A stretch of 40,326 bases of DNA from a virus, in IMG/VR virus record IMGVR_UViG_3300037076_000474, positions 1-40,326 of that record; one strand, 5' to 3'. Shown in pieces: positions 8,951 through 40,326 of the stretch; position 1 is the stretch's first letter; every line of letters starts with the position of its first letter. Position numbers and translations under genes: made by a program. The notes under the pieces are model-generated. The model was not told where the DNA came from. It worked only from the letters and a program-made list of their open reading frames with translations, and searched no databases.

Positions 8951-9445
8951 ATGGCCATCGTCCTCAAGGTGCGCGGCACCCCCGTCCCGCAGGGCTCTAT
9001 GACCTGTGTGGGCGGGGGAGGCCGTCCGTCGAAGACCGGCAAAATCATCGCCGTCCACAACGTGCAACCGAGCAACAAGGCCGAACTGCACGCCTGGCGT
9101 AACAAGATCGCCGCGGCCGCGCGCCTTGCCGTCGAGAAGATCCCCGGCGCCGTGTTCATCAGCCACGACCCGGTACAGGTCGACCTCACCTTCACCTTCG
9201 AGCGGCCCAAGACCGTCACCCGTGACTGGCCATCTGTGCCGCCCGACATCGACAAACTCGCTCGAGCCGTCCTCGACGGCCTCACGTACGGCGAGATATG
9301 GGCCGACGACGGCCAGTGTGTGCTGCTCAACGTCGTCCAGACATACCCCGACATGGCCGCCAACTGCCCCTTCCCGGAGGACGTGCTCGACGTTCCCGGC
9401 GTGACGATCCGACTGTCGGACGTCACCGCAAACCGACTCATCTAG
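8951..9445 (+). CDS. rusA: RusA-like Holliday junction resolvase
   Basis: 164 residues, start ATG at 8951 directly after the upstream gene. The hallmark is PPDIDKLARAVLDGLTYG followed by IWADDGQ, with acidic residues Asp99, Asp101 and Asp119/Asp120 matching the metal-binding aspartates of the RusA family. The N-terminal RGTPVPQGSM is also typical (G-x-P-x-P-K/Q-x-R/S). Resolves four-way junctions arising during recombination or replication before packaging. Fits the upstream ATPase/exonuclease/annealase set. Confidence 0.93.
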   Translation: MAIVLKVRGTPVPQGSMTCVGGGGRPSKTGKIIAVHNVQPSNKAELHAWRNKIAAAARLAVEKIPGAVFISHDPVQVDLTFTFERPKTVTRDWPSVPPDIDKLARAVLDGLTYGEIWADDGQCVLLNVVQTYPDMAANCPFPEDVLDVPGVTIRLSDVTANRLI

Positions 9446-9456
9446 GAGTACTCGCC

Positions 9457-10794
9457 ATGTCCACCACGAACCGCATCGACCCGATTCAGATGATCAACGT
9501 CGACCGCATCGACCCGCACCCGCTGAACCCGCGCCACGACCTGGGCGACCTCGGCGACCTGGTCAAGTCCATCAAGGCGCAGGGGATCCGGCAGAACCTG
9601 CTCCTCGTGCCGAACGGCACCAGCGACACCGTCGAGGAGGACGGGAAGATCCGCCACGCCACCCGCTACACCGTCGTCATCGGTCACCGCAGGTTGGCGG
9701 CCGCGAAGATCGCCAAGCTCGACCAGGTCCCCGTCTCGATCGACCGCAACCTCGACGAAGCGCAGCAGCTCGAGCTCATGCTCGTCGAGAACCTCCAGCG
9801 GACCGACCTGACGCCCATCGAGGAGGCTGAGGGGTATCGCGGACTGTTCGACCTCGGCGTCACAGAAGCCGGGATCTCGAAGGCGATCGGGATCGGCGCG
9901 AAGACGATCAAGAGCCGCCTGCAACTGCTGACGCTGCCCGAGGTCGCACGGTTCCGGATCCACAACGGGCAAGGCTCGCTCGTCGACGCCGTCGCGCTCG
10001 AAGGGTTCGCCGACGATCCGGAGACCCAGGAGCGGCTCGCGGGCAAGCTCGGGACGGTCGACTTCGCACGGCTCGTCCAGGAGGCCAAGAACGCACGCAA
10101 GCTCCGCGCCGACCAGGCCCCGCTCGTCGAGGCCCTGCTCGCCGCCGGCGCAACCGAGAGCACAGCCGCATACCCGGTCGGTATGCGCTACGCGCGACAG
10201 GTGAACCTCGAGGAACTCACGAAGTACACAGTCCCGGAGGGCGCTGTCTTCGCCCGCAGCACGTGGAGTGCATCGGTCACGATCTACACGCCATCCGCCC
10301 AATCGGTGGAGGAGGACGTCGACGCGGCTGCCGCACGCGATGCCGAGTGGGCCGCCAAGCGTGCCGCCAACGAAGCCCTGTACGCCCAGGAGAAGGCCGC
10401 TCGCGACGTTCGTGACGCGTGGATCCGCGAGTACCTCACGGGCAAGATGACCCCGGCACACCGTGACGCCATCGTGGCCGCGGCCGCGCAGCGCGTCCTC
10501 TGGGGCTACGTCTCCTCCTACGGCCTCGGCCTGTGGCTCGGGCTCGAGAGCGCGAAGTGCAATAACGACAAGGCCGTCCGTACGGCGCTCGCCGACTGGA
10601 CCCAGGGCAAGCCGCCCGCAGCGTCGTTGCTGCTGTTCATGCACCTTGAAGCCGGCACGGCGCTGAGCGTTACCGCGATCCCGCTGTACGAGGCGCTCAA
10701 GGCGTGCGGCTTCGTCGCATCAGAGGCCGAGCTGCTCCGCGTCTACGGCGAGCCGATCGCGGAAGACGAGGACGACCCCGACGACGAGGCCTAG
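9457..10794 (+). CDS. ParB-like nuclease/partition-domain protein
   Basis: 445 residues; start at 9457 after TAGGAGTACTCGCC. The ParB/sulfiredoxin-type domain covers about residues 10-120: IDPHPLNPRHDLGDL, VVIGHRRLAAAKIAKL (the GERRxxA box, here GHRR) and ENLQRTDLTPIEEAEGY. A helix-turn-helix follows (GVTEAGISKAIGIGAKTIKS) to about 170. The ~270-residue C-terminal part is helical and not recognised, with an acidic end. No ParA partner is visible in the window. Known relatives in phages act as transcription or DNA-transaction factors or nucleases as well as partition proteins, so the role is uncertain. Confidence 0.85.
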   Translation: MSTTNRIDPIQMINVDRIDPHPLNPRHDLGDLGDLVKSIKAQGIRQNLLLVPNGTSDTVEEDGKIRHATRYTVVIGHRRLAAAKIAKLDQVPVSIDRNLDEAQQLELMLVENLQRTDLTPIEEAEGYRGLFDLGVTEAGISKAIGIGAKTIKSRLQLLTLPEVARFRIHNGQGSLVDAVALEGFADDPETQERLAGKLGTVDFARLVQEAKNARKLRADQAPLVEALLAAGATESTAAYPVGMRYARQVNLEELTKYTVPEGAVFARSTWSASVTIYTPSAQSVEEDVDAAAARDAEWAAKRAANEALYAQEKAARDVRDAWIREYLTGKMTPAHRDAIVAAAAQRVLWGYVSSYGLGLWLGLESAKCNNDKAVRTALADWTQGKPPAASLLLFMHLEAGTALSVTAIPLYEALKACGFVASEAELLRVYGEPIAEDEDDPDDEA

Positions 10795-13630: not shown

Positions 13631-13674
13631 GGGAAGGGAATGGAAGGGAATGGAAGGGAATGGAAGGGAGAAAG
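13631..13674 (+). repeat. Purine-only 10-bp tandem repeat
   Basis: The 10-mer TGGAAGGGAA repeats at 13641, 13651 and 13661 within a strand-asymmetric G/A tract that extends from about 13629 to 13674. It lies 20 bp downstream of the iteron-like repeats. In the +1 frame it encodes the GREWKGMEGRK-type tail. Could be an easily melted or triplex-prone element of an origin, or only low-complexity coding sequence. Confidence 0.8.
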
Positions 13675-13691: not shown

Positions 13692-13740
13692 GCATGGCAT
13701 CGTGACCTAGCCATAGCGCGCGCTTCGCGCGATGCCATGC
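13692..13740 (+). other. Inverted repeat with nested GC hairpin
   Basis: GCATGGCATCG (13692-13702) is matched by CGATGCCATGC (13730-13740), an 11-bp perfect dyad separated by 27 nt. Inside it CGCGCG (13717-13722), CTT, CGCGCG (13726-13731) forms an alternative stem-loop. It lies just upstream of the next gene's start at 13751. It may be a transcription attenuator, an operator or part of the candidate origin; no T-run follows. Confidence 0.8.
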
Positions 13741-13750
13741 GGGGCGAGCG

Positions 13751-14212
13751 ATGAGCCGCGTCGAGGGACCCGTCGCCACCGAGGGCGACCGCCGCCATCT
13801 AGCCGAGATCGTCGCCCGCATCCGCCCCGACTGGGACCGCCACGGCATCGCCGCTGCACTCGCCAAGCACCCCTGCCAAGAACTCGACGTGCTCGCCATG
13901 CAAGCCCTCGTCATAGCCGTCACGCGATCCGACCAGCGAACGCCGGCCGTGCTCGCCCTCGACGGAGACCACACGAACCGAGCCCGAGCCGCACTCTCAC
14001 GGCCACAGGTTGCGCCGTCCATGCCGGGGACGTTCAAGCTCGGACCCGAGTGCGACGTGTGCGGCGTTCGCCAAGGCACACACGCCGGAGTCCTCGCGTC
14101 GCTCGAGCACGGCGAGCACGAGTTCCGGCCCGCCGTGCCCAAGCCGCTCGCCAGCACGGAGGCCATCGCCAACGCACGACGAATCGCATTCTCGACCGAG
14201 GAGACCCGATGA
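13751..14212 (+). CDS. Hypothetical protein with possible zinc site
   Basis: 153 residues; ATG at 13751, with GCGAGCG upstream. Helical N terminus (DRRHLAEIVARIRPDWDRHG) and a central ECDVCGVRQGTHAGVLASLE that, with nearby His residues (HGEHEF), could hold a zinc. It often directly follows the replisome-organiser-like gene in actinobacterial phages, which supports a replication-associated role without defining it. ATGA overlap with the next gene. Confidence 0.7.
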   Translation: MSRVEGPVATEGDRRHLAEIVARIRPDWDRHGIAAALAKHPCQELDVLAMQALVIAVTRSDQRTPAVLALDGDHTNRARAALSRPQVAPSMPGTFKLGPECDVCGVRQGTHAGVLASLEHGEHEFRPAVPKPLASTEAIANARRIAFSTEETR

Positions 14213-15027
14213 CCAGCTTCCTCGACAGCAAGGCCGCCGAACGACTCGCCGACGACCTCGAAGCAATACCCGCATTGTTCGCCGACCTGCCCGCCGTCAA
14301 AACCGGAATCAAAGACCCCAGCAACGGCACACACACCCCACCCGCATCAAAACCGCCGCTATCCATGGAGGTCTTGTCATTGCTCGACGTTGCACGCAAA
14401 GGCGTCGAGGAATGGGCAGAAACAGACCCGCGCGGCCACGACGTCCTCGACCGTTACGGCGTCATTCCACACATCGGACTCTGGGTGCGTATCACCATCG
14501 AACTGATGACCGGCGCCGGCGAACATCCACCCACCGTCGTCTACTGGTCAGACCTGACCGACCTACTCGGCGCCCTCAAGGCCGCCACACCCTGGCTCAT
14601 CACGCAGCAGTGGTCGACCGAACTCGCCAAGGACCTGCACGCCCTCAGGGCCGAGATCGAACAGGCCCTCGGGATCAAGCCGGTGTTCGAGCCCAGGTGT
14701 CGCAACCTGTGGTGTGGGACGAACCATGGCGGCGTGTGGCTCGGGACCCTGCTCGAGGCTATGGACAACGGGACTTGGTATCTGTGCCCGAACTGCAAGC
14801 GGGACTACAAGTTCGCGGAAGACCTCAAGGCACTCGGGGGAGCGCAGTACCTGCGAGGCGAAGAGGTCGCGCAACTACTCGACGTGCCATGGTCAACGCT
14901 GCGCTACTGGAAGCAGGAACACTGGATCCGGCCCATCGCCTCAACCAGCGAAGGCATCGCACTGTTCGACCTCGACCAGGTCAGGGCCATCCGCGACACG
15001 CCAGCAGACGAGAGGGTTCGACAGTGA
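14209..15027 (+). CDS. Zinc-ribbon plus MerR/excisionase-type HTH protein
   Basis: 272 residues; start at the ATGA overlap. The N-terminal ~160 residues are a helical unknown domain (LDVARKGVEEWAETDPRGHD). Then CRNLWCGTNHGG and CPNCKRDY give a four-Cys zinc ribbon. The C terminus (about 220-265) reads YLRGEEVAQLLDVPWSTLRY and continues with a Trp-rich helix and FDLDQVRAI, a clear MerR/Xis-like winged HTH. A DNA-binding regulator or DNA-transaction protein is likely; the target is unknown. Confidence 0.8.
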   Translation: MTSFLDSKAAERLADDLEAIPALFADLPAVKTGIKDPSNGTHTPPASKPPLSMEVLSLLDVARKGVEEWAETDPRGHDVLDRYGVIPHIGLWVRITIELMTGAGEHPPTVVYWSDLTDLLGALKAATPWLITQQWSTELAKDLHALRAEIEQALGIKPVFEPRCRNLWCGTNHGGVWLGTLLEAMDNGTWYLCPNCKRDYKFAEDLKALGGAQYLRGEEVAQLLDVPWSTLRYWKQEHWIRPIASTSEGIALFDLDQVRAIRDTPADERVRQ

Positions 15028-15101
15028 CCGGGGATCGGGTCTACCATCACAGCGACGTACTTAGCGCCCAAGATCAGGTCGCACGGCTCGAGTCCACATG
15101 A
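15024..15101 (+). CDS. Possible 25-residue coupling ORF
   Basis: GTG at 15024 overlaps the upstream stop (GTGA) and the TGA at 15099-15101 overlaps the next ATG. The peptide is MTGDRVYHHSDVLSAQDQVA plus five residues. No family is recognised. It may exist only to keep ribosomes on the message up to the HNH-like gene, or the stretch may be non-coding and hold a promoter. Confidence 0.4.
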   Translation: MTGDRVYHHSDVLSAQDQVARLEST

Positions 15102-15394
15102 CTCGCCACACCATCGCCAAACACGCCGGCCGATCCACCAGACGCTGGCGCAAACTCGCAGCCACCCAACGCGCCAAACGCGAAGCCTGCTGCTACTGCC
15201 AACAACCCATCGACTACACCCTGCCCGCCAACCATCGCTACGCGTTCACCGTCGCCCACTGGCTACCCGTCGCCCTCTACCCACACCTCGCCGAGACAGC
15301 CAGCAACATCAGAGGCGCGGCACACCGCGGGTGCAACAGCGAAGCAGGCACCAGCGTTGACGTCGTCGAACCTGGCGCGTCAGTCGACTGGTAG
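15098..15394 (+). CDS. Small HNH-like protein next to the packaging region
   Basis: 98 residues with a basic N terminus (STRRWRKLAATQRAKREACC). HNH elements are CCYCQQPIDY (CxxC pair), FTVAHWLPVALYP where the usual Asp-His is Ala-His, and SNIRGAAHRGCNSEAG holding the His and Cys-Asn. HNH proteins encoded beside terminase genes are known to be needed for packaging of cos phages, and this one lies right next to the gene-free block and the small terminase. Loss of the Asp may reduce nuclease activity; only an alignment can settle that. Confidence 0.75.
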   Translation: MTRHTIAKHAGRSTRRWRKLAATQRAKREACCYCQQPIDYTLPANHRYAFTVAHWLPVALYPHLAETASNIRGAAHRGCNSEAGTSVDVVEPGASVDW

Positions 15395-15511
15395 CGGCCC
15401 CACGGTCGTCCCTCCCGAGCGCTAGGCGGGAGGGGCAGGCTGGTCGGAGCGGGTGAACCCCAAGTCCCCGCCCCGACTGGCCAGTCATAATCGAACACCC
15501 AGAGGACACTA

Positions 15512-15844
15512 CCTAGGGGGGGTATCCCTCGGGCGTGAGACGTACCCTAGGGGGGGTACCCTTCAAAGCCCCTCCCAGCGCCTGAACTACACGGGTGCAA
15601 GTCGGGATGTCTGAGGACACTTAGGGTGTGTTCGATTATGTCGGCCTAGTAGCACAGCATAACCCCTAGTCAGAGGCCCATCGAGAAGAACAATCGAACA
15701 ACCTTAGAAAAATCCACACTCCTGTGGGACGGCCTAGTGAGCCTGTCCCGGTTTCTCTCCCCCCCGATCTACCGGGGGGGCCTATCTGAGGGGGGGTATA
15801 CGCCCCACAGGGGCGCTCCCGCCTCGCTGGTAGGGGGGTATCCC
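15512..15844. repeat. Four TAGGGGGGGTA-type motifs
   Basis: CCTAGGGGGGGTATCCC at 15512-15528, CCTAGGGGGGGTACCC at 15546-15561, GAGGGGGGGTATACGCCCC at 15788-15806 and TAGGGGGGTATCCC at 15831-15844. Each pairs a run of six or seven G with a short C run after TA, so each can fold as a small hairpin; multiple G runs also allow G-quadruplex structures. They interleave with the AATCGAACA motifs. Confidence 0.85.
15759..15780. terminator. C7/G7 stem-loop upstream of the terminase genes
   Basis: Seven C (15759-15765), loop GATCTACC, seven G (15774-15780). It could act as a transcription roadblock for early rightward messages before the late operon, or be part of the packaging signal. There is no T-run, so the terminator call is tentative. 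Confidence 0.4.
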
Positions 15845-15913
15845 TTACGGGGTTGCAAGCGAGGCTGGTTAATCGAACACCCCTTGACCTGTTGATTGTG
15901 CGAGGAGGTCGCT

Positions 15914-16246
15914 ATGCCAGTCACTCCGTCTGTGCTGCGTGCGACTCGTCTGGCGCTCAAGGAGGCCTCGTTGTCGGCCACGTCGGGCCCGGATGCGGGC
16001 ACGGTGGCTGCCCTGCTGAAGTTGGCGGCCGCGGTGGACGCGATCGACGCGAGTGGGCTGAATCCGGCGGGCAAGCTCGACAACGTGAGCCTCGCGACGT
16101 ACCTGAAGTACGCGGATGCGCTGGGTCTGACGCCGGCGGCTCGTGCTGCGGCGTCTGGGGCGCCGATCGAGTCTGAGATGGGTGGTGGGGTTCGTGGTGG
16201 CAGTCTTGGCGCCGTCCTCACCCTCGCCGCTCAAGCCACGGGGTAG
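15914..16246 (+). CDS. terS: Terminase small subunit (probable)
   Basis: 110 residues; ATG at 15914 preceded by a strong GAGGAGGTCGCT site, preferred over an in-frame GTG at 15896. Mostly helical: LRATRLALKEASLSATSGPD, KLAAAVDAID, and DNVSLATYLKYADALGLTPA. It lies directly upstream of and overlaps the large terminase gene, and directly downstream of the repeat-rich block it would be expected to bind. Divergent from textbook small terminases, so the call rests mainly on context and size. Confidence 0.75.
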   Translation: MPVTPSVLRATRLALKEASLSATSGPDAGTVAALLKLAAAVDAIDASGLNPAGKLDNVSLATYLKYADALGLTPAARAAASGAPIESEMGGGVRGGSLGAVLTLAAQATG

Positions 16247-17930
16247 GTTGCTCGGCTGCACTGAGCCTCGCATTTTTACCCCGCCGCTTCGTGAGCTCTC
16301 CCCGGAGACGTCGCTGGGGTTCGCAGCGATCAAGTTCGCGACGGATGTGCTGCTGCTGACGCTGTTCCCGTGGCAGGAATGGCTCCTGATTCACGCGTTG
16401 GAGCTGCTGCCGAACGGCCGGTTCCGGTTCCGGACGGTCTTGGTGCTAGTAGGCCGCCAGAACGGCAAGAGCACCGTGTCGATCGTGCTCGCGTTGTTCT
16501 TCCTGTTCGTGCTGAAGGTGGCGACGGTACTGGGTACCGCGCAGGACCTGGACTCGGCCGAGGCGGTGTGGGAGCAGGCAGTCTCGTTCGTCGAGGAGAT
16601 GGACGACGACACCGCACTTCCGGTCAGGCCGGACCTGAAGGCCGAGCATCACCACACGGTGCGGACGAACGGGAAGATGGCGCTGGTCCTGACCCGCGCG
16701 AACCGTCATCAGCGCCGCTACCGGGTCAAGGCGGCGAACGGGCGCGCCGGCCGTGGTTTCTCTGGCGATCTGACACTCCTGGACGAGCTGCGCGAGCATC
16801 AGACATGGGAAGCCTGGTCGGCGATCACGAAGACGATGATGGGCCGGCCGAACGGCCAGACGTGGGCGATGTCGAACGCCGGCGACATCACGTCGGCGCC
16901 GTTGCGGTTCCTGCGCAAGAAGGCTCACGAGCGTCTGGGTGACCCTGACGGGATCTGTGCACGTGACCCGGCGTCGAACGAGATGCCGTCGCGGGAGGAT
17001 TTCGCGCGAATTGTCGCCGAGCTCGAGCTCGAGGCCTTCGAGGCATGGGGCGACGAGCTGAAGGAGCTCGAGGAGTCGGCCGACGACCTCGGGATCTTCG
17101 AGTGGTCGGCGGCTCCGGAGTGCGAGGTCGTGGATCCGCGGGCGTGGGCCCAGGCGAACCCGTCGATGGGGTACATGATCTCGCCCCAGTCCATCCTCTC
17201 GGCGGCGCTGACGGATCTGGAGTGGGAGTTCCGGACCGAGGTGCTGTGCCAGTGGGCGGATGATGCGTTGACCGGTCCTTTTCCCGTGGGGGCGTTCGCG
17301 AAGTGCGCGGCTGTCCGGGATGCGCGCGGCAGGTTGTTGGAGTCGGAGAAGCTGAGCGCGGCGCGTCGTACGACGGCGTGCGTGACGGTGTCTGAGGACC
17401 GCGCCTGGACGTACGTGACGGTGTGCGGGACTCGTGAGGATGGCCTGCCGCAGCTGGAGGTCTCCGCGACACTCGAGGGCACGGCTGGTCTGGCGAAGTG
17501 GTTCACGGATCCGACGAAGCCGCACCGTAAGCGCTGGCAGGTCGCCGTGCAGATGGGCGGAGCGGCCCCAGAGACCGGCCTGGTGCCGGCGTTGAAACGG
17601 GCCGGGGTCCGGGTGGTGCCGTGGAAGCCGGCGGACGTGACGAGCTCGTGGGGCTTGCTCTTCGACGCGGTCAAGGACTGCCGGATTCGTCACACGTCAC
17701 AGAAGCAGCTCACCGATCCCGCGTCGAAAGCGAAACTCAAGCCGACCGAGTCGGGCGGCAAGCTCCTCGATCGTCGCCGGGCCCGCGGGACTGACCCGGT
17801 GCCGCTGGTCGGTGCGCAGGGCGCGTACTGGCTGTGGCAGAAGCAGAGCACGACGACAACGCAAGCAACGGCCCCGACTGTCTCGGCGGGCCAGACGACG
17901 GTCAACGAGGTTGACCAGATGAACTTCTGA
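16194..17930 (+). CDS. terL: Terminase large subunit
   Basis: About 578 residues if translation starts at GTG 16194 (GTG 16197 is equally possible; the ATG-like upstream extension to 16143 lies deep in the small-subunit gene). The N-terminal ATPase has an adenine-motif region (FPWQEWLLIHALEL), Walker A VGRQNGKST (about 87-94) and Walker B LTLLDELREH (Asp197-Glu198). The C-terminal half is the expected nuclease domain with acidic positions (for example LLFDAVKD). It pumps DNA into the prohead and cuts concatemers. Overlaps the small subunit by about 50 bases. Confidence 0.95.
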   Translation: MVAVLAPSSPSPLKPRGRLLGCTEPRIFTPPLRELSPETSLGFAAIKFATDVLLLTLFPWQEWLLIHALELLPNGRFRFRTVLVLVGRQNGKSTVSIVLALFFLFVLKVATVLGTAQDLDSAEAVWEQAVSFVEEMDDDTALPVRPDLKAEHHHTVRTNGKMALVLTRANRHQRRYRVKAANGRAGRGFSGDLTLLDELREHQTWEAWSAITKTMMGRPNGQTWAMSNAGDITSAPLRFLRKKAHERLGDPDGICARDPASNEMPSREDFARIVAELELEAFEAWGDELKELEESADDLGIFEWSAAPECEVVDPRAWAQANPSMGYMISPQSILSAALTDLEWEFRTEVLCQWADDALTGPFPVGAFAKCAAVRDARGRLLESEKLSAARRTTACVTVSEDRAWTYVTVCGTREDGLPQLEVSATLEGTAGLAKWFTDPTKPHRKRWQVAVQMGGAAPETGLVPALKRAGVRVVPWKPADVTSSWGLLFDAVKDCRIRHTSQKQLTDPASKAKLKPTESGGKLLDRRRARGTDPVPLVGAQGAYWLWQKQSTTTTQATAPTVSAGQTTVNEVDQMNF

Positions 17931-17950
17931 ATCTCTCGAAGGGGGCACTC

Positions 17951-19243
17951 ATGGCATCTGGCGCGCCCGTGACAGAGATCGGCCTGGTTGTTGCGAACGC
18001 GACGATGTGGTGGCCTCAGGACCACGAGGAGACCGTCGAGCTGCGGTGGCCTGACAGTGTCACGATGTACGACCGGATGCGCCGGCAGGACTCCACGGTC
18101 CGGTCCTCATTGCAGGCCGTCAAACTCCCGATTCAGCGCACCACGTGGCGAATCGACCCGAACGGGGCCAGGCCGCTCGTCGTGGAGGCGTGTGCCGACG
18201 AGTTGGGGCTGCCGATCGTCGGAGGTGCCCCGCGCCCCGTGCTTCGGACCCGGGACCGGTTCTCGTGGGCGGATCACCTGAGGCTCGCGCTGCTGAAGCT
18301 CGACTTCGGTCATTCGTTCTTCGAGCAGACGTACCGGATCGACGCGTCCGGCTTCGCGCACATCCGCAAACTCGGCTGGCGGCCTCCGCGGACCATCTCT
18401 CGGGTCGTAGTGGCGCGTGACGGTGGCCTCGAGGCGATCTGGCAGTACGGCGTCGGGGAGGCGATCCCCGTCAGCCAGCTGGTTGCGTACGTGAACGAGC
18501 GCGAAGGTGGCAACTGGCTCGGCCAGTCGCTGATTCGCCCGGCGTACAAGCCGTGGATGCTGAAGGACCGCGCCCTCCGCGTCCAGGCGCAGACCTTGGA
18601 CCGCAACGGTCTCGGCATCCCCGTGTACGAGGCCGGCGCGGAACCCGACTACGAGGGGTTGCAGCCGGAGGATCGTCAGAAGGCGGTCCAGGCCGAGATG
18701 GACGGCGGCGCGAAGCTGGCGCAGGCCTACCGGTCCGGCGACAACTCGGGTGCTGCGATCCGCAACGGGTCGAAGCTAACCCTGATGGGCGTCACCGGCA
18801 CCCTGCCGGACTCCGACAAGCCAATCCGCTACTACGACGAGCAGATCAGCGCCGCCGTGCTCGCGAACTTCCTGAGCCTCGGCGGCGATAACGCGACTGG
18901 TTCGTATGCCCTCGGGAAGACGTTCGCCGAGTTCTTCGTTCAGTCGCTGCAGACGCTCGCCCTCGACATCGCGGATGTCGCCACGATGCACATCGTCGAG
19001 GACTTCGTTGACCTGAATTTCGGCACTGACGAGCCGGCCCCTCGGATCGTGTTCGACGAGATCGGCGCTCAGCAGCTCGCCACGGCGCAGGCCATCAAGA
19101 TGCTCATCGACTGCGGGGCGCTGAGGGCTGACGATCCGCTGGAGACGTTCCTGCGCGAGCGGTACACCCTTCCAGCTGCGGATCCGGCGACAAGCCGTAT
19201 CGCACCCACGCCGACCCCCACACCGCCCGCCCAAGGAGCATGA
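17951..19243 (+). CDS. Portal protein
   Basis: 430 residues; ATG at 17951 after GAAGGGGGCACTC. Typical features are MYDRMRRQDSTVRSSLQAVK near the start, WADHLRLALLKLDFGHSFFE in the middle, a wing/stem region, and IRYYDEQISAAVLANFLSLG with FAEFFVQSLQTLALDIADV toward the end. This pattern fits the DUF935-like portal family of long-tailed phages. Forms the dodecameric DNA channel and docks terminase and connector proteins. Followed by the protease gene with an ATGA overlap. Confidence 0.93.
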   Translation: MASGAPVTEIGLVVANATMWWPQDHEETVELRWPDSVTMYDRMRRQDSTVRSSLQAVKLPIQRTTWRIDPNGARPLVVEACADELGLPIVGGAPRPVLRTRDRFSWADHLRLALLKLDFGHSFFEQTYRIDASGFAHIRKLGWRPPRTISRVVVARDGGLEAIWQYGVGEAIPVSQLVAYVNEREGGNWLGQSLIRPAYKPWMLKDRALRVQAQTLDRNGLGIPVYEAGAEPDYEGLQPEDRQKAVQAEMDGGAKLAQAYRSGDNSGAAIRNGSKLTLMGVTGTLPDSDKPIRYYDEQISAAVLANFLSLGGDNATGSYALGKTFAEFFVQSLQTLALDIADVATMHIVEDFVDLNFGTDEPAPRIVFDEIGAQQLATAQAIKMLIDCGALRADDPLETFLRERYTLPAADPATSRIAPTPTPTPPAQGA

Positions 19244-39016: not shown

Positions 39017-39802
39017 TCATGCCGCGAACCTCAGCGCGGTCCGCATCGACGCCGACCCCGTGTCGAGGTACACCTGCGTCGTCATCAGCGACGCGTGACC
39101 GAGCAGCAACTGGACGGCGCGCAGGTCATGCTCACCCTCGTAGGCGCGGGTCGCGAACCGCCGGCGCAGGCTATGAGGGCTCCAGCCGTCCGGGAGCGCG
39201 GCGGAGATGAGCACGCCGACCCGGCAAGGCGTCAGGTGCCCGTTACGGCCCGGGAACAGCCATCCACGGGGCGCGGCCGCGATCCGGGCGGCAATGCCCG
39301 GGTGGAGCGGGATCGTGCGCTCACGCGAGCCCTTGCCGTGAACCACGAGCAGCCAGCCTTCCTGGTCGCTGCGTAGGTCGCGTGTGTGGACAGCGGCGAT
39401 CTCGCAGCGCCGCAGACCCTGACGGGCGCCGAGGTCGATCATGAGCTGCGTTCGCGCGTCGCAGACGGCCGCCAGGATGGCCGCGTCTGGTGCAGCGGGC
39501 AGGTTCACATGGGCGAAGTGGATCGGGGGCAGGGCTTCGGCGGGGGAGTGGCGGATCACGCGCGTCGCGACCAGGTGCCGGTAGAAGTCACGAAACGTGG
39601 CCCTGATGGAGTAGCGCGTCGACGGTCCCCACTCGCCCGAGTTGAGGTACGTGACGAGGTCGGCGGTCGTCGCGGCGCGGATCTTGCCCGGGTGCTGCTC
39701 GGCGAAGCGCCGCAGCTGCCATGTGCGCAGGTAGATCGTCGAGCGAGGACGACCCATATTTCGGAGATGGTCGGCGTAGGTGCCGATGTCAGGGGAGGTC
39801 AT
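39017..39802 (-). CDS. int: Tyrosine integrase
   Basis: 261 residues from ATG 39802; another ATG at 39868 overlaps the lipoprotein stop (ATGA) and would add 22 residues. N-terminal SAM-like core-binding domain (GTYADHLRNMGRPRSTIYLR). Catalytic residues: Arg131 (GLRRCEIA), Lys157 (VHGKGSRER), His210 and Arg213 (SPHSLRRRFA), His236 (LGHASLMTT) and nucleophile Tyr245 (QVYLDTG). All six are present, so the enzyme should be active. Lacks a long arm-binding N terminus, so it may act as a simple integrase/XerD-type recombinase. The attachment site was not identified; it would be expected near this gene. Confidence 0.95.
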   Translation of the reverse strand: MTSPDIGTYADHLRNMGRPRSTIYLRTWQLRRFAEQHPGKIRAATTADLVTYLNSGEWGPSTRYSIRATFRDFYRHLVATRVIRHSPAEALPPIHFAHVNLPAAPDAAILAAVCDARTQLMIDLGARQGLRRCEIAAVHTRDLRSDQEGWLLVVHGKGSRERTIPLHPGIAARIAAAPRGWLFPGRNGHLTPCRVGVLISAALPDGWSPHSLRRRFATRAYEGEHDLRAVQLLLGHASLMTTQVYLDTGSASMRTALRFAA

Positions 39803-39864
39803 GGACTGCGATCCTCGTACGAGCGTGAGGGTCCGGGGCCCAGATAAGAGGACGCTCATGCCCG

Positions 39865-40326
39865 TCATTGAAGGATGATGCCGCCCATCGTCTCTTGTAC
39901 GATCTTGGCGTCGTCCTTGTGCATGCGGATGAACCAGTTGTCGCCGACGAGCAGTCCGACCGGCTGGCCAGACGCCCGAATCGCCGACAGTGACAAGGTG
40001 ATGGCCGACATCATCACTTTCCGGTCGGGGTCCGTGGCGGGCGAGAAGGACACGAGTACCAGGCTGTCGCACGTCCCGGCAATGTCGGCGATGATCGTCC
40101 AGTTGTCGCACGGCATCCCTGCGGCTATGAGCTCGACCCTCACCGCGTCCAGGCTGGCGAGCGTCGTGGACTTCGGTGTCGCCGATGCGGTCGCCGTGAC
40201 AGTCGTGGTGGCCGTAACCGTCACAGTGGGAGCTGGCTTCGGCTGGAGTGCCGCGCAGCCAGTGAGCGCGAGCAGTGAGGCAACTAGGGCCAGGGTCAAG
40301 GGGCGGGTCGTTTTCATGGCGCTCAT
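39865..40326 (-). CDS. Lipoprotein, candidate surface-changing gene of the lysogen
   Basis: Visible 153 residues; an ATG lies exactly at the window edge, so the true start may be there, at the downstream ATG 40317, or beyond the edge. Signal peptide (KTTRPLTLALVASLLA) and lipobox LTGC with Cys24 are clear. A Thr/Val/Ala linker (about 33-55) leads to a soluble domain of about 95 residues (LDAVRVELIAAGMPCDNW, VSFSPATDPDRKVMMSAIT, and IRASGQPVGLLVGDNWFIRM). Small surface lipoproteins next to integrases sometimes block superinfection by other phages; here that is inference. Confidence 0.85.
   Translation of the reverse strand: MSAMKTTRPLTLALVASLLALTGCAALQPKPAPTVTVTATTTVTATASATPKSTTLASLDAVRVELIAAGMPCDNWTIIADIAGTCDSLVLVSFSPATDPDRKVMMSAITLSLSAIRASGQPVGLLVGDNWFIRMHKDDAKIVQETMGGIILQ

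Follow-up and report, generated by a model that had tools for sequence, protein, structure and literature searches.

We asked what purpose is served by the block of 519 bases (15395-15913) lying between an HNH endonuclease gene and the small terminase gene terS in an IMG/VR virus record. This record, which is linear and 40,326 bases long, was analysed as a whole and is here called the window. The virus is one of high-GC bacteria, probably Actinobacteria. A preliminary description had presented the block as gene-free, rich in hairpins and in two interleaved families of repeats, and a likely packaging site of which the repeats would be the small terminase's target. The block does contain open frames, but none of at least 60 amino acids both starts and ends inside it, and a hidden RNA was rejected as an explanation, since searches of the window against Rfam and for tRNAs gave no match. 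The location between an HNH-like gene and terS/terL was borne out by matches to phrog_338, PF23931 (just below cut-off), and phrog_9, respectively. The flanking genes are as follows:

15098..15394, + strand: HNH endonuclease gene (98 aa), cos-adjacent; phrog_338, E 9e-18
15914..16246, + strand: small terminase gene terS (110 aa); PF23931 Terminase_6, E 9.6e-6
16248..17930, + strand: large terminase gene terL; phrog_9, E 6e-66; start uncertain, with the open frame running from 16143

The TerS score against PF23931 was 26.5 bits, 0.5 below the cut-off of 27, and the homologues in three contigs (L013, L014, and L015) scored above the cut-off; the TerS structure model (pLDDT 57) was too poor for a fold search. 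The GC skew is positive over terS and terL (16001-18000) and negative in most of the genome, a change that perhaps reflects a different origin of the terminase genes.

The gene order HNH-cos-terS-terL matches that of phages with deposited ends: terS/terL stand at the left genome end in the named phages, and in most of the best-matching phages no gene, or hardly any, separates the HNH homologue from the right genome end. Direct comparison of the block DNA with the named phages gave chance-level matches only. Searches for further relatives with the TerS, HNH, or hairpin sequence returned contigs L013 and L014 again and one distant HNH besides, while a scan of the genome collection yielded distant prophages only. 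Judged from the sequence as a whole, the block very probably serves as cos in a temperate tailed phage with a genome of about 40 kb, and terminase would cut at 15749|15750; the repeats may be accessory sites, and the hairpins are probably terminators. The cos region is ordinary in kind; its two-sided repeat array is the unusual part.

The position of the cut was predicted from related phages. A box rule was derived by aligning nine junctions from phages whose linear ends are deposited, and eight more, fetched later, formed a held-out set. A box of the form [ACG]A[AT]C was present 35-36 nt before the right end in all 17 related actinobacteriophages (9 training, 8 held out), which are mutually related and hence do not amount to 17 independent tests; by chance, the rule holds at about 5% of positions. 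Among the nine named phages, only four (Reyja, Olliecat, Cole, and Galaxy) carry the C-rich left-end word TCTCCCCCC in its exact form, each once per genome and at position 7-9 counted from the left end; the window (15756) and the near-complete relative G001 have one copy each. The window also has the C-rich left end (TCTCCCC at +7 to +9) accompanied by a C-run/G-run inverted repeat, which is arranged alike in Galaxy and in contigs L014, L016, L017, L025, and L034. The box and the left-end word combined single out one position in the window, 15749|15750, and one in G001. Contig L015, which belongs to the same clade and has a TerL 86% identical, starts with GGTTTCCCTCCCCCC at the base homologous to 15750; it is a single contig. 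Four other contigs (L025, L029, L031, and L033) start with ATGGTTTATCTCCCC, a beginning similar to the left ends seen in Brahms and Quenya. Since the box rule, the left-end word, and the contig end agree, a cos cut inside the block, predictable to the base, is supported at 15749|15750. The predicted elements are the following:

15711..15714, + strand: AATC box of cos, 35 nt before the cut, by the box rule
15740..15749, + strand: predicted 10-nt 3' single-stranded end AGCCTGTCCC, the cut falling after 15749
15750..15750, + strand: predicted first base of the left genome end, by the combined rule; L015 starts at the homologous base
15756..15764, + strand: left-end element TCTCCCCCC, unique in the genome
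15759..15780, + strand: C-run/G-run inverted repeat just inside the left end

We predicted AGCCTGTCCC as the end because the cluster EB phages, Brahms and Elva included, are reported to have 3' extensions of 10 bases (PMC7302621); the overhang in the window is thus probably 3' and 10 nt long. A headful pac site, with a cut position chosen only roughly, would also go with a small terminase and repeats beside terS, but it is very improbable given that the homologous phages have defined ends, as in cluster EB, and that the contig end and the box rule coincide to the base. The box rule does not hold in the cos phage ArV2, whose terminase is TM4-like and whose 3' overhang measures 9 nt; the rule is therefore limited to the window's terminase family. 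A profile HMM of the nine whole junctions was too weak to locate the site, so the position rule was used instead, and a pattern of interleaved G-word and box turned out to be too strict. A point against the prediction is the distance from the HNH stop codon to the cut, 355 bp in the window as opposed to a shorter 54-189 bp in eight of the nine named phages. At the left ends of L016, L017, L025, L034, and Galaxy, the inverted repeat is followed by an alternating GCGCGCGTGCGCG-like sequence; the window's clade is without this stretch and has G-tract motifs in its place.

The palindromes and hairpins pointed out earlier are real, at 15408-15481 and 15759-15780. Those of the first group follow the HNH gene:

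15408..15436, + strand: hairpin 1, CCCTCCCG-AGCGCTAGG-CGGGAGGG, invariant in three relatives
15439..15481, + strand: hairpin 2, nearly invariant

The RNA of 15408-15481 folds into two strong stems at -56.7 kcal/mol (z -4.0), and three relatives share 94% identity over 15407-15486 (80 bp). This segment, whose loops are invariant, is among the most conserved DNA of the aligned stretch and exceeds terS in this respect. As the hairpins hardly vary among the relatives, there is no covariation to read. On the simplest reading, the two are probably a tandem terminator of the rightward operon, although a sequence-specific role is also conceivable, given that the loops do not vary. The hairpin at 15408-15436, being among the best-conserved parts, was also considered as the cut site, and was dropped since the box rule, the left-end word, and L015 all point to 15749|15750.

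We then turned to the repeats. The first family, AATCGAACA, is present four times in both orientations, as had been described, with three copies on the + strand and one on the - strand:

15489..15497, + strand: AATCGAACA site 1, -261 from the cut
15629..15637, - strand: AATCGAACA site 2, -121 from the cut
15692..15700, + strand: AATCGAACA site 3, -58 from the cut; ATTCGAACA in L014
15871..15879, + strand: AATCGAACA site 4, +122 from the cut and about 35 nt before terS

A scan of the whole record for more copies, proposed in the preliminary description, found all four in the block and none elsewhere in the 40,326 bases. The expected number was 0.14, and four copies were reached in none of 100 shuffles. 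By comparison with G001, the two ends of the record fall at nearly one and the same place. The record thus covers almost the complete circle, which makes it meaningful that no further site occurs. In L013 and L014 together, 35 of the 36 AATCGAACA columns are identical, compared with 47% for the rest of the block, a conservation matched by 1 in 20,000 random placements. A 14-base AATCGAACA profile scored 24-26 bits at the four sites, the next best place in the window reaching 10.5.

The second family, likewise confirmed as fourfold, is a G-tract motif in two exact copies of TAGGGGGGGTA and two variants, all on the + strand:

15514..15524, + strand: G-tract motif 1, TAGGGGGGGTA, -236 from the cut
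15548..15558, + strand: G-tract motif 2, TAGGGGGGGTA, -202 from the cut; TACCCCCTGGGGGTA instead in L013 and L014
15788..15798, + strand: G-tract motif 3, variant GAGGGGGGGTA, +39 from the cut
15830..15840, + strand: G-tract motif 4, variant GTAGGGGGGTA, within a stem-loop, +81 from the cut

These four are the only + strand GGGGGTA copies in the record, and motifs 1, 3, and 4 are conserved in L013 and L014. With a looser pattern allowing two mismatches, the genome-wide count was not above chance, so that the clustering of the motif, not its number, is what is notable. In seven of the nine named phages, a GGGGGTA word precedes the right end by about 55-71 nt; it is absent in Cole and Popper. 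Its placement directly before the AATC box, a common though not defining feature, is not seen in the window, where it is displaced to four other places; the G-tract motif may thus be a displaced and multiplied form of a general cos word.

The two parts of the preliminary packaging proposal fared differently. That the block holds a packaging site is supported by the three lines of evidence for the cut at 15749|15750. The repeats may or may not be the target of TerS: the nine named relatives have homologous terminases and no comparable repeat near cos, and the conserved cos elements are other short sequences. A four-copy 9-mer upstream of terL was also not found at loci outside the L013/L014 clade. 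As the array is absent near the cos of the nine named relatives, AATCGAACA is, by this comparison, not a shared recognition signal of this terminase family. The reading that we favour, at somewhat under even odds, is that the AATCGAACA and G-tract sets are accessory sites of the packaging complex. More doubtful is the specific form in which a two-sided array straddles cos, the terminase or a partner binds both flanks, and the whole arose in one small clade on top of a minimal ancestral cos.

Two alternatives for the repeats involve other proteins encoded by the phage:

13732-15027: 431-aa protein with a MerR-type helix-turn-helix (MerR_1 domain)
9298-10791: ParB-family protein with ParB_N and HTH_ParB domains
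39017-40111, - strand: integrase

According to the first, the AATCGAACA sites are operators at which a phage regulator (e.g., the 13732-15027 protein) controls a late promoter beside cos, from which terS and the head genes would be transcribed, with cos also present in the block. In its favour, the gap between site 4 and terS is about 35 nt, an activator or a repressor could well use asymmetric sites in both orientations, and the MerR_1 domain protein is encoded just upstream. However, the nearly complete genome has no other sites, early and integrase regions included, which is unlike genome-wide repressor sites; the sites extend as far as 260 bp ahead of the cut; and a scan of the block for the sigma-70 consensus found no promoter-like sequence of that type. 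Operators are the main rival reading and are less likely than the favoured one. The second alternative, in which the repeats serve partition or replication as ParB-bound or iteron-like sites that happen to lie beside cos, draws on the ParB-family protein and on a replication-initiation-like protein also encoded by the phage. It is improbable: the presence of an integrase means that the prophage probably integrates, there is no ParA among the genes scanned, and the sites are nonpalindromic and flank the cut, not replication genes.

Returning to the favoured reading of accessory packaging sites, we propose the following course of events. TerS recognises cos and TerL cuts; in HK97, HNH stimulates the cutting (PMC11331095). 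Here, TerS and TerL would cut concatemeric DNA at the predicted 15749|15750, leaving a short 3' overhang, and the neighbouring HNH protein would probably help in the cutting. The core signal would be short, consisting of the A-rich AATC box 35 nt upstream, the cut, TCTCCCCCC, and the C-run/G-run inverted repeat. Around this core, the window has three AATCGAACA copies and two G-tracts before the predicted cut and one and two, respectively, after it; we infer that these sites would bring together the packaging proteins, be it TerS or a partner, on either side of the cut. The hairpins would most likely end the HNH transcript ahead of cos.

The proposed core resembles the cos of the actinobacteriophages compared, i.e., Microbacterium cluster EB (Brahms and Elva), Arthrobacter phages Cole and Galaxy, and Gordonia phages Tarzan and Reyja. 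They have the same gene order, the box 35-36 nt from the right end, a C-rich left end with an inverted repeat, and homologous TerL and HNH proteins, their TerS being of the Terminase_6 type. Their cos is compact, mostly with a single GGGGGTA-type word beside the AATC box and no repeat array, while in the window this word is displaced and fourfold, and AATCGAACA is added. The layout HNH, cos, terS, terL, with a 3' overhang (predicted in the window), is also that of HK97, whose TerS recognises a short site a little inward of the left end, at +15 to +29 (PMC11331095). That site requires an A:T-rich tract, whereas the window has the C-run/G-run inverted repeat at the same place. In lambda, the R sites of cosB lie on the terS side of the cut. 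The window does not show this confinement to the terS side of cosN: three of its four AATCGAACA sites lie between the HNH gene and the predicted cut, and the array straddles the cut, which that of lambda does not. The likeness to lambda cosB R3, R2, and R1 lies in several short asymmetric sites near the cut, one of them inverted (PMC4669245); the TerS sites of lambda form a 120-bp cosB, and its overhangs are 5'.

We found no description of the DNA target of this terminase family in the literature searched. With the box and left-end rule, nothing but the sequence of an uncultured relative is needed to predict its cos cut to the base; the rule also yields short candidate recognition sequences for the family. 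A clade-specific array, for its part, would show packaging or late-gene control elements being added around a minimal cos.

Two tandem repeats outside the block were also observed. One, at 13632-13669 beside the start of the 13732 gene, is a perfect repeat of GGAAGGGAAT in 3.8 copies. The other occupies the very start of the record (1-261) and comprises nearly ten 27-base repeats of the unit ACGGCTGCGACGTCGGGCGACCAGTCC, which are probably what broke the assembly of the circular genome.
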